Shown: positions 19,411 to 60,090 of the stretch, piece after piece | How positions within the stretch are numbered: position 1 is the stretch's first letter | How the letters are laid out: every line of letters begins with the position of its first letter | From: Agelas oroides | Taxonomy: Eukaryota > Porifera > Demospongiae > Agelasida > Agelasidae | Length of the DNA stretch: 64,000 nt | Assembly: GCA_949130485.1 (NCBI GenBank) | Contig: OX422195.1 | Span: 3,928,066 to 3,992,065 of the forward strand | Direction: 5' to 3' | Position numbers and translations under genes: made by a program | The notes under the pieces: generated by a model | Seen by the model: only the letters and a program-made list of their open reading frames with translations | The model's database searches: none | Told to the model about the DNA's origin: nothing

Positions 19411-20426
19411 TTAAAACATGAGGACATCCACAGTTTGTAAAATGGCTTTGTCCGACCTTTCAGCTACTTAAACAGGTCTGCACCAGTTGCTCTGCACCTT
19501 CATAGTAATAAAAAACGCTTTCTACATCATTGCTGACACAAACAGGTCTGCATGAGTTTCGTAGGTCCTCTCTGGGCACTTAAATACGCATGCACGAGCT
19601 TTCTCGATCTTTCCTGGCGCTTAAACAGGTTTGCACGAGCTTCACAAGACTTCCACAGTGGTAAAAAACTGCTTTCTCCGTCTTTCCTGGCACTTAAACA
19701 GGCCTCACCGTGTTTCGCAGGACCTAATAGACTAGAGAAAATTGATTTTCTGGCATTTAAACAGGATTGCACGAGCTCCACAGTGGTTAAAATGCCTTTG
19801 TCCCACCTTGACGGCACTTAAACATGCCTGCACGAGCTTCAGAGGACGTACACAGTGTTCAAAATGGCTTTGTCCGACCTTTCAGCCACTTAAACAGGTC
19901 TGCACCTGTAACTCCACACCTTCACAGTTATAAACGATTTCTAGATTTTTGCGGACACCAAAACAGGTCTACAAGAGCTTCGCAGGTCCTCCACGGTGGT
20001 TAAATGTACTTTCTCGGACCTTACCCGCGCTTAAACACGCATGCACGAGATTTATAGCACAACCACAGTGATGAAAACTGCTTTCTCGATCTTTCCTGGC
20101 GCTTAAACGGGCTTGCACGAGCTTCACAAGACTTCCACAGAGGTGAAAACCCCTTTCTCCGTCATTTCTGACACTTAAACAGGCCTCAACGTGTTTCACA
20201 GGACCTCTACACTAGACAAAATTGATTTCCTCATCTTCCCTGGCATTATACAGGCTTGCACGAGCTTCACAGGATCTCCACAGTGGTTAAAATGGCTATG
20301 TCGCACATTCGCGGCAGTTAAACATGCCTTCAGAGGACGTCTAGAATGTTTAAAATGGCTTTGTCGGACCTTTCAGCCACATAAACAGGTCTGCACCAGT
20401 AACTCTGCACGTTCTCAGTATTAAAA

Positions 20427-20832
20427 GGTAGATGGGCCAGGCTCTCTTCTCCTTGGCTGCTGCCCTGTGGTGGCGAAACCGGTTGCGGATGGTTTTAGTG
20501 GTCTGGCCTACGTACATTTTTGAGCATTTTGAACAGATGATGACATAGATGAGGTTAGTGCTAGAACAGGTGAAGGTGTCTGTGAGGTGGAAGGGTTGTT
20601 GTGTGACTGAGGAAGAGATGGTGTGGTAGGAGAGGAGGATGGGGCAAGTAGAACATAGAGCACGGTGGCAGGTTTTAACACGGTAGTTTTCGGAACTTAT
20701 CTGCAGTGGGATGTCGGTGGTGTTTGGGGGGATTTCTCTGAGTGTCCTTGCTGAGACCCTGTGGTTGCTGAGGGCCTTTTCTTTCCTGTAGCTTAGTTGT
20801 GGGGTGGAAAACATTTGTGTGAGGGTTTGGTC
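20427..20832 (-). pseudogene. Penelope-like element fragment with GIY-YIG endonuclease
   Basis: A minus-strand open frame of about 135 codons embedded in satellite. It contains, in order, a basic linker, a Cys pair (CHRALCSTC), then NLIYVIICSKCSKMYVGQTT and RNRFRHHR. The IYVI...YVGQT spacing and downstream Arg/His match the GIY-YIG nuclease that ends Penelope-like retroelement proteins. The family's upstream reverse transcriptase is absent, and the nuclease itself is cut off after KEKRAWPIY, where the frame runs into satellite codons. A GGTA tetranucleotide sits at the left edge (20427) and again just past the right edge (20833). This is a dead fragment. Confidence 0.75.
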
Positions 20833-23170
20833 GGTAAAAACTGCTCTATCGATATTCTCTGTCACATAAAACAGCCGCCACGAGCTTCACAGCACCTCCT
20901 CGGAGGCTAAAACAGTGTTATCAGGTCTTTCCCGCACATAAACAAGATTGCACCAAGCTCACAATGGCTCCTCGGTGGTGAAAACCGCTTTTGTCGATCT
21001 TCCCTGGCTCTTAAACAGGCCTTAACCTGCTTCACAGTACCTCCTGGGTGATTAAAACGGTTTATCACGTCTTTCCCGCACATAAATAGGCTTGCGCCAA
21101 CGTCACAGCGACACCACAGTCGTTAAAACTGCTTTCTTGATCTTCACTGGCTCTTAAACGGGACTCAACGTCCTTCAGAGCACCTCCTCGGCGGTGAAAA
21201 CGGCGTTATAAGGTCTTTCCCGTACGTAAACAGGCTTGCATTCACCTCACAATGCCCCCTCAGATGTGAAAACAGCATTCTAGATCTTCCATTGCACTTA
21301 AACAGCCATGAAAGTGCTTCACACTACCTCCTGGGTGGTTAAAATGGCTTGATCACGTTTTTCCCACACATAAATAGGCTTGCACCAAACTCACAGTGCC
21401 ACGGTAGTGGTAAAAGCTGTTTTCTCGATCTTCTCTGGCACTTAAACAGGCGTCCACGTGCTTCACAGCACATCCTCGGAGTTTTAAACGCCGTTATCAG
21501 GTCTTTCCCGCACATAAACACTCTTGCACCAACCACACAGGCCCTCCACAGTGGTGAAAACTGCTTTCTCGACCTTCTCTGACACGTATACCGGCCTGCT
21601 CATGCTTCAGAGCACCTCCTCGGAGGTTAAAACGGCTTTTTCAGGTCTTTCCCGTAAATAAACAGACTTGCACCAACATCACAGGGCTTCCACAGTGGTG
21701 AAAACTGCTTTCTCAATCTCCTCTGGCACTTAAACAGGCTTCCACATGCTTCACAGCACCTCCTCGGTGGTTAAAACGTCTTTATCAGGACTTTCCTGCA
21801 CATAAACGGGCTTGCACCAACCTCAAAGTGCCACCACAGTGGTGAAAACTGCTCGATCTTCTCTGGCACTTAAACAGGCTTCCACGTGCTTCACAGCACC
21901 TCCTCGGAGGTTAAAACGTCGTTTTCAGGTCTTTGCCGCACATAAACAGGCTTGCACCAAGCTCACAATGGCTTCTCAGTGGTGAAAACCGCTTTTGTCC
22001 ATCTTCCCTGGCTCTTAAACAGTCCTTAACGTGCTTCATAGTACCTCCTGAGTGGTTAAAATGGCTTTATCACGTCTTTCCCGCATATAAATTGGCTTGC
22101 ACCAACCTCACAACGCCACCACAGTGGTGAAAAGTGCTTTCTCGATCTTCTCTGGCAATTAAACAGGACTCAACGACCTTCAGAGCACCCCCTCGGAGGT
22201 GAAAACGGCGTTATCAGGACTTTCCCGGACATAAACGGACATGCACCAACCTCACAGTGCCACCACAGTGGTGAAAACTGCTTTCTCGATCTTCTCTGGC
22301 ACTTAAACAGGCCTCCACGTGCTTCACAACCTCCTGGGAGGTTAAAACGCCGTTATCAGGTCTTTCCCGCACATAAACTGGCTTGCACCAATCTCACAGG
22401 GCCTCCATAGCGGTGAAAACTGCTTTCTCGATGTTCTCTGGCACTTAAACCGGCCTCCACGTGCTTCACAGCACCATATCGGAGGTTAAAACGGCGTTAT
22501 CCTGTCTTTCCCGCACATAAACAGGCTTGCACAAACCTCACAGGGCCACCACAGCGACGAAAACTGCTTTCTCGATATTCCCTGGCACTTAAACAGGACT
22601 GCACGTTCTTCACAGTACTTCCTCGGATTCTAAAAACGGCGTTATCAAGTCTTTCCATCACATAAACAGGCTTGCTCCAACCTCACAGTGCTTCCACAGT
22701 GGTTAAAACTGCTTTCTAAAACTTCTTTGGCACTTAAACAGGCCTCCACGCGCTTCACAGCACCTTCCCTGAGGTTAAAACTGGTTTATCAGGTCTTCCC
22801 CGCACTTAAACAGGCTTGCACCAAGCTCACAGTGCTTCCACAGTGGCCAAAACTGCTTTTTCGATCTTCCCTCGAACTTAAAGAGGCCTGAACGTGATTC
22901 ACAGTACTTCCTGGGTCATTAAAACGGCTTTATTAAGTCTTTCCCGCACATAAACAGGATTGCACCAGCCTCACAGGGCTTCTACAGTGGTGAAAACTGC
23001 TTTCTCGATCTTCTCCAGCGCTTAAACAGGCCTGCACGTGCTTCAGACCACCTTCTCGGCGGTTGAAACGGCGTTATCAGGCCTTTCCCTTTCATGAACA
23101 ATCTTGCATCAACAACACAGGGCTTCCACAGTGGTGAAAACAGCTTTCTCGATGATCTCCGGCACTTATA

Positions 23171-44670: not shown

Positions 44671-44985
44671 GCTGTTTAAGTGCAAGAGAAGATCGAGAAA
44701 GCAGTTTTGACAACTTTGGAAGCACTGTGAAGTTGGTGCAAGCCTGTTTATGTGCGGGAAAGACCTGATAGCGCCGTTTTAACCTCCGAGGAGGTGCTCT
44801 GAAACACGTGGAGTCCTGTTTATGTACCAGAGAATATCGATAAAGGGGTTTTCACTACTGTGGAGACCCTGTGAGTTTGTTGCAATCCTGTTTACATGCG
44901 GGGAAGACCTGATAACGCCGTTTTAACCTCCGAGGGGATGCTGTGAAGCACGTTGAGGCCTGTTTAAGCGCCAGAGAAAATTGAG
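44671..44985 (+). repeat. Small plus-oriented satellite island
   Basis: Orientation flips at ATAAACAGGCTGTTTAAGTG (about 44661-44680) and back at AAAATTGAGAGCACTTAAAG (about 44977-44996). About two units long. Confidence 0.9.
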
Positions 44986-47900
44986 AGCACTTAAAGAGGC
45001 CACCACGTTCTTCGCAGCACTTTTTAGGAGGTTAAAACGGAGCTATCAGCTATTTATCGCATATAAACAGGTTTTCACCAACATCACACGGCCTCCACAG
45101 CAGAGAAAAATGCTTTGTCGGTCTTCTCTGGCACTTAAACAGTCCTCCACGCGCTTCACAGCACCTCATAGGAGGTTAAATTTGCTTTATCATGTCTTTC
45201 CCGCACATAAACAGGCTTCCACCAACCTCACAGTGCTTCCAAAGTGGTCAAAACTGCTTTCTCGATCGTCACGGGCACTTAAACATGCCTCAACATGCTT
45301 CACAGCACCTCTTCGGAGGTTAAAACGGTGTTATCAGGTCATTCCCGCACATAAACAGGCTTGCACCAACATCACTGGGCGTCCAAAGTGGTGAAAAATG
45401 CTTTATCGATCTTCTCTGGAACTTAAACAGGCCTCCACGTGCTTCACAGCACCTCATAATAGGTGAAACTTGCTTTATTAAGTCTTTCCCGCACATAAAT
45501 AGGCTTGCACCAGCCTCACAGGGACACCACAGTGGTGAAAACAGCTTTCTCGATCTTCTCTGGCAATTAAACAGGCCTCCGCGTGCTGCACAGCACATCC
45601 TTGGTGGGGAAAACGGCGCAATCAGGTCTTTCCCACACATAAACAAGCTTGCACCAACCTCACAGATCTTCCAAAGTGGACAAAACTGCTTTCTTGGTCC
45701 TCTCTGGCACTTAAACAAGCCTCCACGCGCTTCACAGAACCTCTTAGGAGGTTAAAACGTCGTTATCATGTCTTTACCGCGCCTAAACAGGCTTGCACCA
45801 AATTGACAGGGCGTCCACAGTGCTGCAAACTGCTTTCTCGATCGTCTCCGGCACTTAAACATGCCTACACATGCTTCACAGCATCTCCTCGGAGGTTAAA
45901 ACGATGTTATCAGGTCTTTCCCGCACATAAACAGGCTTGCACAAACCTGACAGGGCATCCACAGTGGTGAAAACAGCTTTGTCGATCTTCTCTGGCAAGT
46001 AAACAGGTCTGAACGACCTTCCCAGCTCCTGCTCGGTGGTTAAAACTGCTTTATCACGTCGTTCCTGCACAAAACAAGCTTGAACCAACTTCACAGCGTA
46101 TCCACAGTGGTGAAAACTGCTTTCTCGATCTTCTCTGGCACTTAAACACGCCTCGTACGTTCTACACAGTACCTGCTCAGAGGTTAAAACGGTGTTGTCA
46201 GGTCTTTCCCGCACATAAACACGCTTGCACCATCCTCACAGCGCATCCACAGTGGTGTAAACTGCTTTCTCGATCTTCTCTGGCACTGAAACAGGCCTCC
46301 ACATGCTTCACAGCACCTCCTTGAAGGTTAAAACGGCGTTATTAGGTCTTTCCCGCACATACACAGGCTTGCACCAACTTCACAGTACTTCCACAGGGGT
46401 GAAAACTGCTTTCTCCATCTCCTCTGGCGCATAAACAGGCCTCCACATGCTTCACAGCACTTCCTGGGAGGTTAAAACGGCGTTATCAAGTCTTTCCCGC
46501 ACATAAACAGTCTTGCACCAACCTCACAGGGCCGCCACAGTGGAGAAAATGTTTTCTCGATCTTCACTGGCACTTAAAAACAAGCCTCCACATGCTTCAC
46601 AACACCATCGTGGAGGTTAAAACGGCCTTATCAGGTCTTTCCCGCACATAAACTGGCTTGCATCAACCTCACAGGGCCTCCACAGTGGTGCAAACTGCTT
46701 TATCAATCTTCTCTAGTACTTAAACTGGACCCCACATGCTGCACATCACATCATAGGGGGTTAAACTTGCTTTGTCAGGTCTTTCCCGCACATAAACAGG
46801 CTTGCACCAGCATCACATGGACACCACAGTGGTGAAAACTGCTTTCTCGATCTTCCCTGGTACTTAAACAGGCCGCCACGTGCTTCGCAGCATCTCCTCG
46901 GAGGTTATAACGGCGCTATCAAGTCTTTCCCGCACATAAACAGTCTTGCACCTACTTCACAGGGCCTCCACATTGGTGAAAACTGTCTTCTCGATCTTCT
47001 CTGGCACTTAAACAAGCCTCCACATGCTTCACAGCACCATCGTGGAGGTTCAAACGGCTTTATCAGGTCTTTCCCGCACATAAACAGGCTTGCACCAACC
47101 TCACAGAGCCTCCACAGTGGTTAAAACTGCTTTATCAATCTTCTCTAGTACTTAAACCGGCCTCCACGTGCTTCACATCACTTCATAGGAGGTTAAACTT
47201 GCTTTGTCAGGTCTTTCCCGCGCATAAACAGGCTTGAACCAACCTCACAGGGTCACAGCAGTGCTGAAAACTGCTTTCTCGATCCTCCATGGCACTCAAA
47301 CAGGCCTCCACGTGATTCAAAGCATCTCCTCGGAGGTTAAAACGTCGCTATCAGGTCTTTCCCGGACATAAACAGGCTTGCGCCAACCTCACAGGGCCCC
47401 ACATCGGTGAAAACTGCTTTATCGATGTTCTCTAGTACTTAAACAGGCCTCCACGTGCTTAACAGCACCTCCTCGATGGTTAAAACTGCTTTATCAGGTC
47501 TTTCCCACGCATAAACAGGCTTGCACGAACCTCACAGGGCAACGGCAGTGATGAAAACTGCTTTCTCGGTCATCTCTGGCACTTAAACAGGCCACCACGT
47601 GCTTCGCAGCCCTTTTTTGTAGGTTAAAACGGCGCTATAAGGTAATTACCGCATATAAACAGGCTTGCACCAACCTCACAGCACGTCCACAGTGGTGAAA
47701 ACAGCTTTGTCGATCTTCACCCACATAAACAGGCTTGCACCAACCTCACAGGGCCTCCACAGTGGTGAAAACTGTTTTCTCGATCTTCTCTAGCACTTAA
47801 ACAGGCCTCCACATGCTTCACAACACCACCTCGGAGGTTTAAACTGCTTTATCAGGTCATTCTCGCATATAAACAGACTTGCACCAACCTCACCGCGCCT

Positions 47901-49400
47901 CCACAGTGGTAAAAACTGCTTTCTCGATCGTCTCTGGCACTTAAACAGGCCTCCACGTGCTTCACAGCACCTCCTCGTAGGTTAAAACAGCGTTATCAGG
48001 TCCCTCCCGCACATAAACCGGCATGCATCAAGCTCACAGTGCTTCCAAAGTGGTCAAAACTGCTATCTCTATCTTCCCTGGCACTTAAACAGGCATCCAC
48101 ATGCTTCACAGCACTTCCTCGGAGATTAAAACGGCGTTAACAGGTGTTCCCCGCACATAAACAGCCTTGCACCAACCTCACAGCGCTTTCAAAGTGGTCA
48201 AAACTGCTGTCTCGATCTTCTCTGGCCTTTAAACAAGTCTGCACGTGCTTCACAGTACCTCCTCGGAGGTTAAAACGGTGTTATCAGGTCTTTCACGCAC
48301 ATAAACAGGTTTACATCAACCTCACCGCGCCTTCAGAGCGGTGAAAACTGTTTTCTCGATCGTCTCTGGCTCTTAAACAGGCATCCACGTGCTTCACAGC
48401 ACCTGCTCGGGGGTTAAAACGGCTATATCAAGTATTTCACGCACATAAACAGGCTTGCACCAACCTCACAGCGCCTCCACAGTGGTGAAAACCGTTTTCT
48501 CGATCGTCTCTAGTACTTAAACAGGCCATGACGTGTTTCAAAGTACCTGCTACGAGGTTAAAACGGCGTTATCAAGTCTTTCCCGCTCATACACAGTCTT
48601 ACACCAACCTCACCGCGCCTTCACAGCGGTGAAAAATGTTTTCTCGATCGTCTATGGCTCTTAAACAGGCATCCACGTGCTTCACAGCACCTGCTCGGGG
48701 GTTAAAACGGCTATATCAAGCATTTCACGCACATAAACAGGCTAGCACCAAGCTCACAGCGCCTCCACAGTGGTGAAAACTGCCTTCTCGATCGTCTCTG
48801 GCACATAAACAGGCCTCCACGCGCTTCACAGCACCTCCTCGGAGGTGAAAACGGCGTTATCAGGCCTTTCCTGTACATACACAGGCTTGCACCAACCTCA
48901 CATGGCCTCCACAGTTGTGACTACTGTTTTCTCGACCTTCTCTAGCACTTAAACAGGCCTCACACATGCTTCACAGCATCATCTCGGAGGTTAAAACGGC
49001 TTTATCACGTTCTTCCCGCACATAAACAGTCTTGCACCAACCTCAGAGAGCCTCCACAGTGAGTCAAAAGGGGTCAAAACTGCTTTCTCGATCTTTTCTG
49101 GCGCTTAAACCGGACACCACGTGCTTTACAGCACCTCCTCGGAGGTTGAAACGGCGTTATCAGATCTTTCCCGTACATAAACAGGCTTGTACCAACATCA
49201 CAGGGCCTCCACAGTGGTGAAAATCGCTTTCTCGATTATCTCTGGCACTTAAACAGGACTCCACATGTTTCAGAGCACCTCCTCGGAGGTTAAAACGGCG
49301 CTATCAGGTCTTTCCCGCACATAAACAGGCTTGCACCAACTTCACAGTGCTTCCAAAGTTGTCAAAACTGCTTTCTCGATCTTCTCTGGCACTTAAACAG
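44986..49400 (-). repeat. 144-bp satellite block (minus orientation)
   Basis: Same unit as the main block. It contains a 432-bp higher-order repeat (CACCATCGTGGAGG at 46603 and 47035) and a 288-bp repeat (CTTCAGAGCG at 48331 and CTTCACAGCG at 48619). It ends at the inversion junction at 49400/49401. Confidence 0.95.
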
Positions 49401-52400
49401 CCTGTTTATGTGCAGGAAAGACCTGATAATCCCGACTTCACCTCCGAGGAGGTTCTCTGAAGCACGTGGAGGCCTGTTTAAGTGCCAGAACAGATCGCGA
49501 AAGCAGTTTTCATCACTGTGGGGGGTGTGTGAGGCTCGTGCAAACATGTTTATGTGCGGGAAAGACCTGGCAAAGCCGTTTTAACCTCCAAGGAGGTGCT
49601 GTGAAGCATGTGGAGGCCGGTTTAAGTGCCAGAGAAGATCGAGAAAGCAGTTTTCACCACAGTGGAGGCCCTGCGAGATTGGTACAAGCCTGTTTATGTG
49701 CGGTAAAGACCTGATAACACCGTTTTAATCTCCGAGGAGGGTCTGTGAAACACGTGCAGGCCTGTTTAAGTACCAGAGAAGATCGAGCAAGCTGGTTTCG
49801 CCGCTAAACAGGCCCTGTGAAATTGGTACAAGCCTGTTTATGTGCGGTAAAGACCTGATAACACCGTCTTAACCACCCAGGAGGAACTGTGAAGCACGTT
49901 CAGGCCTTTTTTAAGGGCCAGAGAAGATCGAAAAAGCAGTTTTGACCACTGTGGAAGCAATGTGATGTTGGTGCAAGCCAGTTTATATGCGAGAAAGACC
50001 TGATAACACCTTTTTTAACCTCCGACGAGGTGCTGTGATGCACGTGGAGGACTGTTTAAGTGCGAGAGCATATCGAAAAGGCAGTTTTCATCGTTGTGGA
50101 GGCCCTGTAAGGTTGGTGCAAGCCTTTTTATGAGTGGGAAAGAACTGATATCGCCGATTTAACGTCTGAGGTGCTTAGAAGCACGTGCTGTCGTGTTTAA
50201 ATGCCAGAGAAGATCGAGAAAGCAGTTTTGACCACTGTGAGGTTGGTGCATGCTTGTTTATGTGCGGGAAAGACCTGATAACGCCGCTTTAACCTCCGAG
50301 GAGGTGCTGTGAAGCTCGTGGAGGCCTGTTTATGTGCCAGAGACGATCGAGAAAGCAGTTTTTACCACTGTGGAGGCACTGTGAGGCTGGTGCAAGCCTG
50401 TTTATGTGCGGCAAAGACTTGATAAAGCAAGTTTAACCTTCTATGAGGTGCTGTGAAGCACGTGGAGTCCTGTTTAAGTACCAGAGAAGATCGATAAAGC
50501 GGTTTTCATCACTGTGGAGGCGCTGTGAGGTTGGTGCAAGCCTGTTTATGTGCGGGAAGAACGTGATAATGCCGTTTTAACCTCCGAGGTGATGCTGTGA
50601 AGCTTGTGTGAGGCCTGTTTAAGTGCTACAGAAGATCAAGAAAACAGTCTTCATCACTGTGGAGGGTCTGTGAGGCTCGTGCTAACCCGTTTATGTGCGG
50701 GAAAGACCTGGCAAAGCCGTTTTAACCTCCAAGGAGGTGCTGTGAAGCATGTGGAGGCCTTTTTAAGTGCCAGAGAAGATCGACAATGCAGTTTAGGCCA
50801 CTGTGGAAACACTGTGAGGTTGATGCAAGCCTGTTTATATGCGGGAAAGACCTGATAACGCCGTTTTAACCTCCGAGAAGGTGCTGTGAAGCACGTGGAG
50901 GCCTGCTTAAGTGCCAGAGAAGATCGAGAAAGCTGGTTTCACAACTGTAGAGGCCCTGTGAGATTGGTACAAGCCCGTTTATGTGCGTTAAAGACCTGAT
51001 TACACCGTTTTAACCACCGAGGTGGTTCTGTAAAACACGTGCAGGCCTGTTTAAGTGCCAGCGAAGAACAAGAAAGCTGTTTTCACCACTTTGGAAGCAC
51101 TGTGGTGTTGGTGCAAGACTGTTTATGTGCGGGAAAGACCTGATAAAGCAGTTTTAACCTCCTATGAGGTGCTGTGAAGCACGTGGAAGCATGTTTAAGT
51201 GCCAGAGAAGATCGAGAAAGATGGTTTCGTCGCTGTAGAGGCCCTGTGAGATTGGTACAAGCCTGTTTATGTGCGGTAAAGAAATGATAACACCGTTTTA
51301 ACCTCCGATGAGGTTCTGTGAAACACGTGCAGGTCTGTTTAAGTACCAGAGAAGATCGAGAAAGCTGGTTTGGCCGTTGTATAGGCCCTGTGAGATTGGT
51401 ACAAGCATGTTTATGTGCGGTAAAGACCTGATAACACCGTTTTAACCTCCGAGGAGTTTCTGTGAAACACGTGCAGGCCTGTTTAAGTGCCAAGGAAGAT
51501 CGGGAAGGCAGTCTTCATCACTGTGGAGGGTCTGTGAGGCTTGTTCTAACCCGTTTATGTGCGGGAAAGACCTGGCAAAGCCGTTTTAACCTCCAAGGAG
51601 GTGCTGTGAAGCATGTGGAGGCCTTTTTAAGTGCCAGGAAAAGATCGAGGAAAGAGTTTTCACCACTGTGGTGGCACTGTGAGATTGGTGCAAGCCTGTT
51701 TATGAGTGGGATAGACCTGATAGCGCAGTTTTAACATCCGAGGAGGTTCTTGGAAGCACGTGCTGTCCTGTTTACATGCCAGAGAAGATCGACAATGCAG
51801 TTTTGCCCACTGTGGAAACACTGTGAGGTTGATGCAAGCCTGTTTATGTGCGGAAAGACCTGATAACGCCGTTTTAACCTCGGAGAAGGTGCTGTGAAGC
51901 ACGTGGAGGCCTGTTTAAGTGCCAGATAAGATCGAGAAAGCTGGTTTCACCGCTGTAGAGACCCTGTGAGATTGGTACAAGCCCGTTTATGTGCGGTAAA
52001 GACCTGATAACATTGTTTTAACCCCCGAGGAGGTACTGTGATACACGTGCAAGCCTATTTAAGTGCCAGGGAAGAACGAGAAAGCTGTTTTCACCACCGT
52101 GGAGGCGCTGTGAAGTTGGTTCAAGCCTGTTTATGCGTGGGAAAGACCTGATAACGCCGTTTTAACCACCGAGGAGGTACTGTGAAGCACGTTCAGGCCT
52201 GTTTAAGTGCCACAGAAGATTGAGAAAGTAGTTTTGACCACTTTGGAAGCACTGTGAGGTTGGTGCAAGACTGTTTATGTGCGGGAAACACCTGATAATG
52301 CCGTTTTAACCTCCGAGCAGGTACTGTGAAGCACGTGGAGGCCTGTTTAAGTGCCAGATAAGATCGAGAAAGCAGTTTTGATCACTTTGGAAGATCTGTG

Positions 52401-52785
52401 CGGTTGGTGCAAGACTGTTTGTGTGCGGGATAGATCTGAAAACGCCGTTTCAACCTCCGAGCAGGTACTGTGATGCACGTGGAGGCTTGTTTAAGCGCCA
52501 GAGAAGGTCGAGAAAGCAGTTTTGACCACTTTGGAAGCACTGTGATGTTGGTGCAAGACTGTTTATCTGCGGGAAAGACCTGATAACGCAGATTTAACCA
52601 CTTGTGAGGTGCTGTGAAGCACGTGGAGGACTGTTTAAGTGCCAGAGAAGATCGAGAAAGCAGTTTTCATCACTGCGGAAAAGACCTGGCAAAACCGTTT
52701 TTAACCTCCGAGGAGGTTCTATGAAACACGTGCAGCCCTGTTTAAGTGCCAGGAAGGATCGCAAAAGCCGTTTTCACGACTGTGA
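49401..52785 (+). repeat. 144-bp satellite block (plus orientation)
   Basis: Begins at the palindromic junction TTAAACAGCCTGTTTA. The first 2.5 kb is the inverted copy of segment C. It ends at CGACTGTG, where the 3.4-kb retrotransposon starts. Confidence 0.95.
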
Positions 52786-52848
52786 ATGAGACCCGCTTCA
52801 GTACACTGCGGTATATCCAAGACCAAGTAAATTGGAATTTGGAGAGAG

Positions 52849-55200
52849 ATGACCTGTTGCCGATGTAATCGTACGGGCCGCTGCCAGAACTGTGCTTGTG
52901 TGAAAAGAGGACAGCCATGCCAGAGCTGCCTACCACAGCGACTGGGGAACTGTGCTAATACTGTTCAGACTCAGCCGTCCACACCTCAGGCTTCAGCCCT
53001 GGTCTCACAACTCTCTTCACTTTCTGTGACTGTGACAACCATACCTGAGACTCCTCCACGCTCAAGTGCCCTTGAGAATGAACCAACGCTTCCTCAATTT
53101 ACCCCCATGGCAGACCCTGTGTTCACCTGGGGTGAACTTGACTCAACACAGTTTACTGACAACCTCAACGCTGCCTTCGCTGAGGCTGTGCACTGGAAGA
53201 TGAATGTCTTCAGGGTCCCCTATGGGAAAGCAGGGAAGTCATTTGTTTCTGAGCTAGCCAGACTATTTAAGGCTTTTGCCACTAGCTCTGCTCTCGAGTC
53301 TGTTGCTCTGAAAGCAGCTACACTCATGCCTATTCTCCTACTCCAGAAGCCTGCCCGCAAGTCAAAAGCCAAAGACCACATCACATGCCTTGAACGACGA
53401 CTAGACACCTGGCGAGAGGGAGACCTGAATGAATTATTGAGAGAGGGGAGAACAATACAACAACGCATTTCCAAGACTTCACCATCATTCAACAATGAAC
53501 AAATATCTCGCTCATTCGCTAACTTGATGTTCCAGGGTAAGACCAAGGCGGCACTTCGCCTCCTCTCTGAACAGAGTAAGGGAGGTGTTCTCCATGTGGA
53601 TGATCCTATTGAAACTGAGAATGGACAAAGAAAGGTGAGGGACATCCTTCTGGAGAAACACCCTCCATGTCAACCAGTACACAATGACGCAATCATTAAC
53701 GATGACACCCCTGATGTTCACCCTGCTCTGTTCGAATCTCTGGATGCTGCGGCGATTAGATCTGCCGCATTGTACACCAGCGGAGCAGCTGGACCCTCTG
53801 GTCTCGACGCACATGGATGGAGAAGGCTATGCACTTCGTTCAAGACAGCATCCTTTGAGCTTTGCCAGTCCCTTGCTTTGACAGCAAAACGCCTCTGCAC
53901 AGAATTTGTTGATCCAGTAAGCATTGCACCTCTCATGGCCTGCCGCCTCATTGCCCTAGACAAGAACCCTGGTGTTCGGCCCATCGGTATCAGTGACACA
54001 GCTAGACGCATCATTGCTAAAGCCATTTTAAACATCACAAGACAAGACATACAAGAAGTAGCCGGCTCTGTACAACTCTGTGCAGGTCAGATTTCAGGCA
54101 TTGAGGCAGCTGTGCATGCTGTTCGCACCCTGTTTCACAGAGAAGAAACTGAAGCTCTCCTATTAGTTGACGCCAGTAACGCCTTTAACTCCCTTAACAG
54201 ACAAACAGCTCTACACAACATCCAGAGACTTTGCCCCTCCCTTGCTACTGCTCTTATCAACACCTACAGAGCCCCCTCTGAGCTGTACGTAGACGGAGGT
54301 GTACTCCTATCTCGTGAAGGAACCACTCAGGGGGACCCACTGGCTATGCCAATGTACGCCTTGGCAACCATTCCCTTGATCAGGAATTTGAAAGACAGTG
54401 TGAGTGATGTAATTCAAGTATGGTATGCTGATGATGCTTCTGGTGCTGGAAAGATCACCAGACTACGTGAGTGGTGGGAACAACTCAATGCTCTAGGCCC
54501 TGAATTCGGTTATTTCACCAACGCAAGCAAGACCTGGCTTGTCACCAAAGAGAACTGTCTCTCTACTGCAGTAGAGGCTTTCGCTGACACAGATGTAAAA
54601 GTCACCTCAGAGGGCAGACCTTACCTTGGGGCAGCTCTTGGCACAGAGGACTACATACAAGCATTTGTGACCAACAAAATCCAACAATGGGCTGGAGAAC
54701 TAGAGCAGCTGGCATCTATCGCACGCAGTCAACCTCATGCTGCACACGCAGCTTTCACTCATGGGATGACAAGCAAGTGGACTTATCTCACCCGCACGAT
54801 GCCTGGCATTGGCCCAAATCTCTCACCACTTGAAACCATCATTAGAACCAAGCTGATCCCTGCACTTACAGGCAGACCTCCACCGAATGAAACTGAGCGT
54901 GAACTCCTTGCACTGCCAGCCAGACTAGGAGGCATTGCTCTGTCCAATCTTACTCAAGCCACAGATACCGAATTCCTCTACTCCACCAAGATCACTGAAG
55001 CTCTGACAGAAGCAATTCTCCACCAAGACTTTCAGTACCCTGAAGACGTAATCACTCGCCAACTTGAGACAAAAAAGGAAGTACACAAACTGAAACGAGA
55101 TTCTGCTAGACAAGTCTCTGAGCAACTGAAAGAATCCCTGAACCACTCCCTCAAGCAATCCATGGATCTTGCCAAGAAAAGGGAGCCTCATCCTGGCTAA
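52849..55200 (+). CDS. Retrotransposon reverse transcriptase (783 codons, C-terminus shifted out of frame)
   Basis: This would copy element RNA into DNA at a nicked target. Residues 3-36 hold a dense cysteine cluster (CCRCNRTGRCQNCACVKRG, then further CxxC pairs), probably zinc-binding; R2 proteins have a C2H2 finger plus Myb here instead. A Ser/Thr/Pro linker follows to about 95, then a helical region with ERRLDTWREGDLNELL near 180-200. The transcriptase motifs are VRPIGI (376-381), LLVDASNAFN with the first catalytic Asp at 441, TTQGDP (492-497) and YADD (526-529). The thumb region follows, then a basic tail. The ATG at 52849 is chosen because the earlier ATG at about 52788 stops after 14 codons. 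The frame ends at TAA 55198-55200, just after an A-rich run (55174-55182). The C-terminal domains continue in the next frame. The transcriptase itself is fully open, so the insertion is young. Confidence 0.92.
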   Translation: MTCCRCNRTGRCQNCACVKRGQPCQSCLPQRLGNCANTVQTQPSTPQASALVSQLSSLSVTVTTIPETPPRSSALENEPTLPQFTPMADPVFTWGELDSTQFTDNLNAAFAEAVHWKMNVFRVPYGKAGKSFVSELARLFKAFATSSALESVALKAATLMPILLLQKPARKSKAKDHITCLERRLDTWREGDLNELLREGRTIQQRISKTSPSFNNEQISRSFANLMFQGKTKAALRLLSEQSKGGVLHVDDPIETENGQRKVRDILLEKHPPCQPVHNDAIINDDTPDVHPALFESLDAAAIRSAALYTSGAAGPSGLDAHGWRRLCTSFKTASFELCQSLALTAKRLCTEFVDPVSIAPLMACRLIALDKNPGVRPIGISDTARRIIAKAILNITRQDIQEVAGSVQLCAGQISGIEAAVHAVRTLFHREETEALLLVDASNAFNSLNRQTALHNIQRLCPSLATALINTYRAPSELYVDGGVLLSREGTTQGDPLAMPMYALATIPLIRNLKDSVSDVIQVWYADDASGAGKITRLREWWEQLNALGPEFGYFTNASKTWLVTKENCLSTAVEAFADTDVKVTSEGRPYLGAALGTEDYIQAFVTNKIQQWAGELEQLASIARSQPHAAHAAFTHGMTSKWTYLTRTMPGIGPNLSPLETIIRTKLIPALTGRPPPNETERELLALPARLGGIALSNLTQATDTEFLYSTKITEALTEAILHQDFQYPEDVITRQLETKKEVHKLKRDSARQVSEQLKESLNHSLKQSMDLAKKREPHPG

Positions 55201-55952
55201 CCTCTCTGCCGATTGAAGAATTTGGCTTTGCACTCCACAAAGGGGCTTTTTATGATGCACTTGCCCTCAGATACAACTGGCAGCCCCTGCGCACTCCATC
55301 AACATGTGGCTGCAGTGCCAAGTTCTCTGTAGAACATGCTCTCTCCTGTCCCAAAGGAGGCTTCCCCTCAATAAGACACAATGAAATCAGAGATCTAACT
55401 GCCAACCTTCTAACAGAGGTTTGCAATGATGTCCGTATTGAGCCAGAATTGCAACCAATCACTGCTGAATCTCTCACTGGTGCCTCATCTAATGTCCAAG
55501 ATGGTGCACGCCTAGACATTGCTGCCAACGGATTCTGGGGAGGCAGGTTTGAAAGAACTTACTTTGACGTCCGAGTTTTCAATCCATATGCCCCCTCCAA
55601 CCGGCAATCCAGCCTCTCTTCATGTTACCGCAAGCAAGAATCTTCAAAGAAACGTGCGTACGAGCAGAGAGTCAGAGAAGTAGAACATGCCTCTTTTACC
55701 CCACTGGTTCTCTCAGCTACCGGAGGTATGGCAAATGAAGCCACAGTTTTCTACAAAAGACTTGCTTCTTGTCTAGCTATGAAATGGGACCAGTCGTACT
55801 CCTCCACCTTGTCCTGGCTACGCTGTCGCCTGACTTTCTCTCTTCTCCGCTCAGCCATTCAATGTATCAGGGGAGCTCACTCCAGCTGTAGTCATGCTGC
55901 CAAGTCGCCACCTCCCATTGACTTGGCCATCTCTGAACTTCAATGCATCTGA
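55179..55952 (+). pseudogene. C-terminal CCHC and restriction-like endonuclease domain, out of frame with the RT
   Basis: About 257 codons open, one base back from the RT frame, overlapping its last codons and ending at TGA 55950-55952. It has no start of its own that fits, so it is the displaced end of the RT protein. It contains C-x-C-x7-H-x4-C (55305-55349), the knuckle that precedes the nuclease in R2-type proteins. Next is ARLD (Asp at 55515), 16 residues, then FDVRVFNP (Asp at 55566, Arg where many PD-(D/E)xK nucleases have Lys). Family knowledge says this nuclease nicks the target DNA. The shift most likely reflects loss of one base in the A/G run at 55174-55183. A programmed shift is less likely because the run is a poor slippery site. 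Confidence 0.85.
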
Positions 55953-56148
55953 ACTACTTGTGTCTCATTCATTCCTTACTCACTACATTTTTATATATAT
56001 ATATATATTTTTTGTTTTTTATATACCTTTTTTTTTTCCTTACTGTGTGCTTTTAATTTGCCACTTATCCACCAAAGATTGCTTGCATGCACTGTATTTC
56101 TGGGCTTCACATATTACAAAAAAAAATAAAAAATAAAAAAAATGATAT

Positions 56149-59100
56149 AGGTGCAAGCCTGTTTATGTGCGGGAAAGACAAGATAACGCAGTTTTCACCT
56201 CCGAGGAGGTGGTCTGAAGCACGTTGGGTCCTGTTTATGTGCCAGAGAAGATCGAGAAAGCAATTTTCACCACTGTGGAGGCCATGCATGTGAGGTTGGT
56301 GCAATCCTGTTTATGTGCGGGAAAGACCTGATAACGCCGTTTTCACCTCCGGGACTGTACTGTGAAGCACGTGGAGGCCTATGTAAGTGCCAGAGCATAA
56401 CGAGAAAGCAGTTTTCACCGCTGTGGAAACCCTGTCAGGTTGTTGCAAACCTGTTTATGTGCGGAAATACCTGATAAAGCCGTTTTAACCACACAGGAGG
56501 TACTGTGAAGCACGTTCAGGCCTGTTTCAGTGCCAGAGAAGAACGAGAAAGCTGTTTTCACCACTGTCGAAGCCGTGTGAGGTTGGTGCAAGCCTGTTTG
56601 TGTGAGGTAAAGACCTGTTAATGACGTTTTATCCTCCGAAGAGGTGCTGTGATGCACGTGGAGGCCGGTTTAAGTGCCAGAGAAGATCGAGAAAGCTGTT
56701 TTTACCACTGTGGAGGCCGTGTGAGGTTGGTGGAAGCCTGTTTATGTGCGGGAAAGACCTGATAAAGCAGTTTTAACCTCCTATGAAGTGCTGTGAAGCA
56801 CGTCGAGGCCTGTTCTAGTACCAGACAAGATCAATAAAGCAGTTTTCACCACTGTGGAAGCCCTGTGAGGTTGGTTCAAGACTGTTTATGTGCGTGAAAG
56901 ACCTGATAAAGCCCTTTTATCCCCCAAGAGGAACTGTAATGCACTTTCCGGCCTATTTAAGTGCCAGAGAAGAACGAGAAAGCAGTTTTCACCCCTGTGG
57001 AAGCACTGTGAAGTTGGTGCAAGACTGTTTATGTGGGGGAAAGCCTTGATAACGCAGATTTAACCTCCGAGTAGGTACTGTGAACCGGGTGGAGGCCTGT
57101 TTACGTACCAGAGAAGATCGATAAAGCAGTTTTCACCGCTGTGGAGGCCCTATAAGGTTGGTGCAAGCCGGTTTATGTGCGGGAAAGACCTGATAAAAGC
57201 AGTTTTAACCTCCGAGGAGGTGCTGTGTAGCACGTGGAGGCCTGTGTAGGTGCCAGACCATATCGAAAAAGCAGTTTTGACCGCTGTGGATGCCCTGTGA
57301 GGATGGTGCAAGCCTGATTATGTGCGGGAAAGACCTGATAACGCCGTTTTAACCTCCGAGGAGGTGCTAAGAAGCACGTGCTATCCTGTTTAAATGCCAG
57401 AGAAGATTGAGAAAGCAGTTTTGACCACTGTGGAAGAACTGTGAGGTTGTTGCAAGACTGTTTATTTGCTGGAAAGACCTGATAACGCCGTTTTCACCTC
57501 CGAGGTGTTGTGAAGCACGTGGAGGCCTGTTTAAGTAGCAGACATGATCGTGAAAGCTGGTTTCACCGCTGTGGAGGCCCTGTGAGATTGGTACAAGCTT
57601 GTTTATGTGCGGTGAAGACCTCATAACAACGTTTTTACCTCCGAGGAGGTACTGTGAAACACGTGCAGGCCTGTTTAAGTGCCAGGGAAGATCGACAAAG
57701 CAGTTTTCATCTCTGTTGAGAGTTGTGAGGCTCGTGCAAACCCGTTTATGTGCTGGAAAGACCTGGCAAAGCCGTTTCAACCTCCAAGGAGGTGCTGTGA
57801 AGCACGTGGTGGCCTGTGTAAGTGCCAGCGCATATCGAAAAAGCAGTTTTCAGCGCTGTGGAGGCCCTGTGATGTTGGTGCTAGCTTGTTTATGAGTGGG
57901 AAGACCTGATATTGCCGTTTTAACCTCCGAGGAGGAACTGTGAAGCACGTGGAGGACTGTTTAAGTAGCAGAGAAGATCGAGAAAGCTGGTTTCACCGCT
58001 GTGGAGGCCCTGTGAGATTGGTACAAGGCTGTTTATTTGCGGTAAAAACCTGATAACACTGTTTTACCTCCGAGGAGGTTCTGTGAAACACGTGCAGGCC
58101 TGCTTAAGTGCCAGGGAAGATCGAGAAAGCAGTTTTCATCACTGTGGAGGGTCTGTGAGGCTCGTGCAAACCCGTTTATGTGCTGGAAAGACCTGGCAAA
58201 GCAGTTTTAACCTCCAAGGAGGTGCTATAAAGCACGTGGAGGCCTGTGTAAGTATCAGAGAAGATCGAGAAAGCTGGTTTTGGCGCTGTGGAGGCCCTGT
58301 GAGATTGGTCCAAGCCTGTTTATGTGCGGTAAAGACCTGATAACACCGTTTTTACCTCCGAGGAGGTTCTGTGAAACTCGTGCAGGCCTGTTTAAGTGCC
58401 AGAGAAGATCGAGAAAGCAGTTTTCATCACCTTGGAGGGGCTGTGAGGCCCGTGCAAACCCGTTTATGTGCTGGAAAGACGTGGCAAAGCCGTTTTAACC
58501 TCCAAGGAGGTGCTGTGAAGCATATAGAGGCCTGGTTAAATGCGAGAGAAGATCGAGAAAGCAGTTTTCACCACTGTGGAGGCCCTGTGAGGTTGTTGCA
58601 AGCCTGTTTATGTGCGGGAAAGACCTGATAACGCCGTTTTAACCTTCGAGGAGGTGCTGTGAAACACGTGAAGGCCAGTTTATGTGCCAGGGAAGATCGA
58701 GAAAGCAGTTTTCATCAGTGAGGAGGGTCTATGAAGCTTGTGCAAACCCGTTTATGTGAGGGAAAGACCTGGGAAAGCCGTTTTAACCTCCAAGGAGGTG
58801 CTGTGAAGCATGTAGAGGCCTGCTTAAGTGCGAGAGAAGATCGAGAAAGCAGTTTTCACCACTGTGGAGGCCCTGTGAGGTTGGTGCAAATCTGTTTATG
58901 TGTGGGAAAGACCTGATAACACCGTTTTAACCTTCGAGGAGGTGCTGTGAAGCATGTGGACGCCGGTTTAAGTGCTAGAGAAGATAGAGAAAGCGGTTTA
59001 AACCCCTGTTGCCTCCCTGTGAGGTTGGTGCGAAACTCATTATGTGCTGGAATGACTTTATAACGCCGTTTTAACCTCCAAGGAGGTGGTGTGAAGCATT

Positions 59101-59724
59101 TGGAGGCCTGTTTAAGTGCCAGAGAAGATCGAGAAAGCAGTTTTCACCCCTGTGGAAGCACTGTGAAGTTGGTGCAAGCCTATTTATGTGCGGCAAAGAG
59201 CTGATAACGCCGTTTTCACCTCCGAGGAGGTGCTCTGAAGCACGTTGGGTCCTGTTTAAGTGCCACAGAAGATCGATAAAGCAGTATTGACCAGTGTAGA
59301 AGCCCTGTGAGGTTGGTGCAAGTCTGTTTATGTGCGGGAAAGACCTGATAAACCCTTTTTAACCACCCAGGAGGAACTGTAAAGCACGTTGAAGCCTGTT
59401 TAAGTGCCAGAGTAGATCGATAAAGCAGTATTGACCAGTGTGGAAACCCTGTGAGGTTGGTGCAAGCCTGTTTATGTGCGGGAAAGACCTGATAAAGCCG
59501 TTTTAACCACCCAGGAGGAACTGTGAAGCACGTTCAGGCCTATTTAAGTTCCAGGGAAGATCGAGAAAGCAGGTTTCAGCCCTGTGGAAGCACTGTGAAG
59601 TTGGTGCAAGCCCATTTATGTGCGGGAAAGACCTGATAACGCCGTTTTCACCTCCGAGGAGGTGTTCTGAAGCACGTTGGGTCCTGTTTAAGTGCCAGAG
59701 AAGATCGAGATAGCAGTTTCACCA
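56149..59724 (+). repeat. 144-bp satellite block (plus orientation)
   Basis: Resumes at GGTGCAAGCCTGTTTATGTG after the retrotransposon tail. About 57920-59220 is the inverted copy of segment A (31140-32440). About 57660-57790 resembles the reverse complement of about 40880-41010. It ends at a flip within TTTCACCATGTACCAATT. Confidence 0.95.
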
Positions 59725-60090
59725 TGTACCAATTTCACAGGGCCTGTTCAGCGGCGAAACCAGCTTGCTCGATCTTCTCTGGTACTTAAACAGGCCTGCA
59801 CGTGTTTCACAGACCCTCCTCGGAGATTAAAACGGTGTTATCAGGTCTTTACCGCACATAAACAGGCTTGTACCAATCTCGCAGGGCCTCCACTGTGGTG
59901 AAAACTGCTTTCTCGATCTTCTCTGGCACTTAAACAGGCCTCCACATGCTTCACAGCACCTGCTTGGAGGTTAAAACGGCTTTGCCAGGTCTTTCCCACA
60001 CATAAACATGTTTGCACGAGCCTCACATACTTCACAGTGCTTCCAAAGTTGTCAAAACTGCTTTCTCGATCTTCTCTTGCACTTAAACAG
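59725..60090 (-). repeat. Minus-oriented satellite island built from two copied pieces
   Basis: 59725-60028 is a direct copy of about 44241-44545. From 60029 the sequence follows about 49338 onward, through the junction at 60090/60091 to about 60270. The switch point is in CTCACATACTTCACAGTGCT. Confidence 0.85.

Follow-up and report, generated by a model that had tools for sequence, protein, structure and literature searches.

A dispersed, probable RLE-type retrotransposon of Agelas oroides with a CXC-like N-terminal cysteine cluster

R2 retrotransposons carry N-terminal zinc-finger (ZnF) and Myb domains that help set their target, as described in PMC10499050, which also gives the nuclease residues of R2Bm as Asp996, Asp1009 and Lys1026. 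According to one account, all early-branching LINEs have a ZF/Myb region (PMC5678591), and another account treats the N-terminal ZnF/Myb region as lying outside its definition of LINEs with a restriction-like endonuclease (RLE), though usual among them (PMC3636483). According to the latter, CRE and R4 leave target duplications, and NeSL and most R2 elements leave deletions (PMC3636483).

Here we describe an element in the window (the whole 64,000-nucleotide stretch of Agelas oroides DNA analysed) that is quite probably a dispersed RLE non-LTR retrotransposon, inserted by target-primed reverse transcription, in which a CXC-like N-terminal Cys cluster replaces the ZnF/Myb module. The limits proposed in an earlier note on this DNA, 52786..56148 on the plus strand, are correct for the inserted sequence, but the first ~48 bp (52786..52833, +) form a 5' leader private to this insertion and its array duplicate, as judged by an alignment of 5' ends and by a genome search, in which a 34-nt piece of it occurs at two places, the window copy and locus L002. 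The leader is followed by a conserved stub preceding the ATG (52834..52848, +), which is common, whole or in part, to L003 and L004. The first part of the ORF (52849..55200, +) encodes 783 aa beginning MTCCRCNRTGRCQNCACVKRGQPCQSCLPQRLGNCAN and comprises the Cys cluster, an N-terminal region and the reverse transcriptase (RT). The cluster spans residues 3-37 (52855..52959, +), with Cys at residues 3, 4, 6, 12, 15, 17, 24, 27 and 35, and the RT core (residues 374-586; 53968..54606, +) matches Pfam RVT_1 with an E-value of 9e-9. The end of the linker, a CCHC knuckle of the form CxCx7Hx3C (55305..55349, +), the RLE core with its RHN, GARLD, DVR and ExxKxxxY motifs (55374..55661, +) and a stop codon follow in a second part of the ORF (55137..55952, +). 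Because these CCHC and RLE motifs (55305-55661) lie in a different frame from the RT, the window copy is frameshifted near 55170, and the stop of the first part comes after this frameshift. A 3' UTR with an A-rich tail (55953..56148, +), delimited by its sequence and by the tails of other copies, completes the element. As the note had also observed, the element is embedded in a 144-bp satellite, which flanks it upstream (49399..52785; tandem repeat table to 52679, the final ~100 bp by eye) and downstream (56149..59724; tandem repeat table). The satellite array switches strand at 44672-44986, 49399 and 59725-60090. Elsewhere in the window, a 171-aa minus-strand frame at 20350-20865 contains CSKCSKMYVGQTTKT; we take it to resemble a GIY-YIG nuclease fragment of a Penelope-like element.

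Locus L002 (G000:C13:4021230) lies 40.4 kb downstream on the same contig, has the same flanks and is 98.7% identical to the window copy; the two are best read as a single insertion later duplicated along with the array. The frame of L002 is open over 1034 codons from the ATG, though Cys24 of its cluster is changed to Phe. Of 20 other loci with both pieces, 17 keep RT and RLE in a single frame, the exceptions being L004, L024 and L030. A DNA search of the 259-Mb host genome returned 61 matches, which correspond to ten independent places of the same family (window included), the array duplicate and siblings that are mostly 66-70% identical. Protein searching gave at least 70 matches, with 57 of 433 candidates scored, and many of these lie in open frames of at least 1000 aa. 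We read seven more diverged elements, one of which is 5'-truncated. Between two families, differences at the three codon positions number 220/142/476 across 756 codons, and the LWL85 method gives a dN of 0.29 and a dS of 2.7 (NG86 and YN00 yielded no usable value for the latter). Copies from different families of the group also stand only a few kb apart at G000:C8:4525304/4528328, C3:6152576/6156513 and C8:6676992/6682140, one of these three pairs directly abutting.

The proposal that the element follows the R2-type order of RT, CCHC and RLE holds at the level of sequence motifs. Nine aligned proteins (eight full-length proteins plus L018) carry, in that order, RT motifs, the CxCx7Hx3C knuckle and the RLE residues RHN/RHD, GARLD, DVR/DIR and ExxKxxxY, the window copy itself being frameshifted. 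Pfam RVT_1 was found in all nine (best E 2.4e-10). When 177,635 PDB sequences were ranked with the family profile, three R2 proteins came out on top (E 2.5e-4 to 6e-4, over the RT span alone), followed by a group II intron RT at 0.018. Searches with single proteins returned no R2 match, and the RLE searched alone against Pfam and PDB gave no relevant match. The RT has what we take to be a CRE-like look.

The note had further claimed that a Cys module occupies the place of the C2H2/Myb region, and this is borne out: none of the eight full-length proteins shows a C2H2 pattern within its first 300 residues, the nine proteins have no Pfam match to C2H2 zinc fingers or Myb, and a Cys cluster stands at the N-terminus instead. 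A 40-residue cluster query found 74 genome places, 68 of them at E<0.001, counting cluster matches whatever their context. Across nine diverged elements, C4, C6, C12, C15, C17, C24, C27, P29, G33, C35 and N37 are invariant, so that eight Cys and the final Cys-x-Asn are kept in all; chance is hardly a plausible explanation for a cluster whose eight Cys and Asn37 are invariant at this divergence. L153 lacks the extra Cys before Cys-1 and has an additional Cys ahead of the Asn. A relative outside the host assembly came from a scan of prokaryote genome contigs, where one of 47 pattern matches (L152) encodes one. L152 is a contig of 3.6 kb deposited under a Poribacteria MAG (isolate Plut_88891); its intact 1050-aa frame is 55% identical over the whole length and likewise has a Cys cluster. 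Together with the 74 genome places, this relative rules out the cluster as a quirk of the window copy. Most likely the contig is animal DNA, derived from a marine holobiont; 'Plut' presumably stands for the coral Porites lutea. No relatives were found in viral contigs.

The arrangement of the cluster is suggestive of the CXC domain, and on this sequence likeness we call it CXC-like rather than a CXC domain. The CXC consensus is given as CX[C/H]X2-13CX4-7CXCX5-60CX2-4CX1-2CX2-15CXN, with a signature Asn (PMC3447885). Like members of the CXC superfamily (MSL2, LIN54/tesmin, pre-SET), the element has C-x-C...C...C-x-C-x6-C-x2-C...C-x-N including the signature Asn, two residues past the last Cys (the invariant N37), but it is missing Cys-8, has a gap of 2 rather than 4-7 between Cys-3 and Cys-4 and carries an extra Cys ahead of Cys-1. 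The strict consensus is thus not matched, and a pattern relaxed post hoc fits the cluster and also 61 of 200,000 shuffles. A host MSL2-type CXC, CPCFSQGKPCNRCLCRNCHN, and the element cluster, CACVKRGQPCQSCLPQRLGNCAN, look alike side by side, and a profile comparison with hhalign gave 36% over 17 columns, with 2 of 200 column shuffles scoring as well. Pfam and PDB searches with a cluster alignment, two rows of which were translated by eye and bear a wrong first residue, gave no significant link to CXC, and none of the 22 matches of the MSL2-CXC model in the genome coincides with the 74 cluster places. Three of the host loci, L160 (C7:2806235), L161 (C3:9414619) and L162 (C1:5822295), have MSL2-type CXC domains above the Pfam cut-off. 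That of L160 lies in an MSL2-like frame, and the frames of L161 and L162 are near-identical, with a motif that we take to be OTU-like; these two look like a mobile gene.

The tails in which copies end are A-rich or otherwise variable, and 5' truncation is seen in several. Among 12 elements for which both ends are available, 8 have flank matches of at least 9 nt, versus 6 of 132 mismatched pairs; this comparison leaves out two pairs in which no 3' motif was recognised. Seven of the eight matches stand at the tail end and measure 9-13 bp, one of them within a local tandem repeat, and the eighth (L022), which falls within a satellite, was left uncounted. The target duplications ATTTGCAAGCT, GCAACGCTG, GTAAATGGTACT and AGTCCCAGACC have no common motif. 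The window insertion has no visible target duplication, and by eye ~15 bp of the satellite unit are absent there.

The position of the window copy had led the earlier note to raise the possibility of satellite targeting by way of the Cys cluster, a reading that we now regard as very improbable. In its favor, the window and L003 copies lie in two different satellites and L013 adjoins one; among 63 insertion flanks, 10 match one of the satellites (144 or 192 bp), versus 2 of 40 random samples; and the five insertions in the 144-bp unit (window, L088, L096, L099 and L103) are all oriented alike (binomial p 0.06). Yet the difference from random has a Fisher p of 0.12, and when the window and L003, the donors of the satellite library sequence, are set aside, 8 of 61 flanks match (p 0.31). 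The 63 flanks come from the 74 cluster places less 11 (nine not fetched, the array duplicate and one 5'-truncated copy), with L044, L050 and L058 excluded from the set, and the random samples were drawn from 18 of 141 contigs. The remaining 53 flanks lie outside both satellites. Thus the comparison of insertion sites with the 144-bp unit found copies outside the satellite, the very outcome that the note had named as speaking against its proposal. Within the units, too, positions are scattered: near 4, 11, 25, 77 and 114 of the 144-bp unit and near 185, 7, 9 and 38 for four insertions in one 192-bp satellite, where junctions are the ends of the flank match and hence approximate. Strict satellite targeting is rejected on flanks, random controls and unit positions. 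There may be a mild satellite preference, given the 10 of 63 flanks and the single orientation; with insertion this scattered, the satellite location of the window copy needs no special explanation and is probably incidental. Dispersal also bears on what the cluster does. It could bind another nucleic acid, such as the element RNA, or a host protein, leaving the RLE and CCHC alone to pick the site. Dispersed insertion, which gives no hint of DNA specificity, fits this alternative, as do weak Pfam matches of the cluster, which are spread across RING, EGF and metallothionein models (the last in 3 of 11 members, best E 0.08). Against it, the cluster occupies the same position as the DNA-binding ZnF/Myb region described for R2 (PMC10499050), and its spacing and final Asn resemble those reported for DNA-binding CXC domains (PMC3447885), so that we think this alternative somewhat unlikely.

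The same junctions raise a question of origin for the 5' ends. Full-length copies carry private leaders, with ~50 nt in L003, 45 in L004, ~59 in L018 and 3-10 in another family separating the duplication from the shared stub. The chances seem about even that these leaders are fresh sequence gained with every new insertion, whether as host flank carried along, by template jumping or as repair filler, and not a fixed 5' UTR. The intervals in L003, L004 and L018 favor fresh gain, as does a 34-nt piece of the L018 leader (from the L018/L043 5' ends) that is identical to C22:1344132-1344165, on another contig. On the other side, leader pieces from the window copy, L003 and L004 have no other place in the assembly, apart from the window piece in the array duplicate; blastn with the L018 5' region found no LINE copy adjacent to the C22 source within 1.3 kb; and longer 5' ends are common to siblings. 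A single spliced leader as their shared source was rejected, since they are unlike one another and three of them have no further genomic match. We likewise set aside a target RNA gene or 5' ribozyme: the window contains no tRNA and no Rfam family that reaches the gathering score, and we attribute three sub-threshold matches in the region to chance.

We therefore favor the dispersed RLE retrotransposon with a CXC-like cluster because RT is found in nine of nine proteins, the motif order recurs in all nine and R2 ranks first by profile; because the cluster is invariant, duplications are enriched (8/12 versus 6/132) and 53 of 63 flanks lie outside the tested satellites; and because codon differences (220/142/476 across 756 codons) and LWL85 values (dN 0.29, dS 2.7) accord with it. 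Weighing against it are the searches with the RLE alone and with single proteins, which gave no relevant match, and the window insertion, which has no duplication; against its CXC-like part stand the failure of the strict consensus and the Pfam, PDB and MSL2-CXC model searches, which give no link. From these features we infer how the element would move. One protein would act as both RT and RLE; the RLE would nick the target, the RT would start at that nick to copy the RNA of the element (target-primed reverse transcription), and a second cut would usually leave the 9-13-bp duplication. The CXC-like cluster, probably zinc-binding, would stand where ZnF/Myb would be and probably act as a clamp on DNA or chromatin with little sequence specificity, which would produce scattered insertion. 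More tentatively, and with the balance of probability against it, a distinct RLE LINE group might have swapped ZnF/Myb for an MSL2/LIN54-type CXC zinc cluster and hence have no fixed target, with insertion guided by chromatin and leaders renewed at insertion. A strictly conserved, different Cys module combined with scattered insertion offers a natural setting in which to test how elements lose or change their target specificity, and a retrotransposon would be using a domain known from chromatin proteins, should the module prove to be CXC.

A literature search, largely of titles and abstracts, found no paper joining a CXC-like cluster to an RLE LINE; a named family may exist in Repbase. Among described systems, R2 proteins are the nearest solved relatives by profile and share with this element a single ORF in which RT is followed by CCHC and a PD-(D/E)xK-like RLE. 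The element has the same Asp, Asp, Lys order as the R2Bm nuclease, with wider spacing (residues as given in PMC10499050). It differs from R2 in that no C2H2 ZnF or Myb was found, its CCHC begins CxC and is not CxxC-like, it is dispersed and not confined to one rDNA site (nor does the window contain any Rfam family), and it makes target duplications, whereas deletions are reported for most R2 (PMC3636483). CRE, R4, NeSL and HERO, compared by description alone, have the same domain order (PMC3636483, PMC4640811), and the duplications reported for CRE and R4 are a further likeness. Their members are described as mostly using fixed sites (SL exons, rRNA, tRNA, snRNA, microsatellites), whereas this element is dispersed; HERO and others are reported to be without fixed sites, and in this they resemble the element described here (PMC3636483, PMC4640811).
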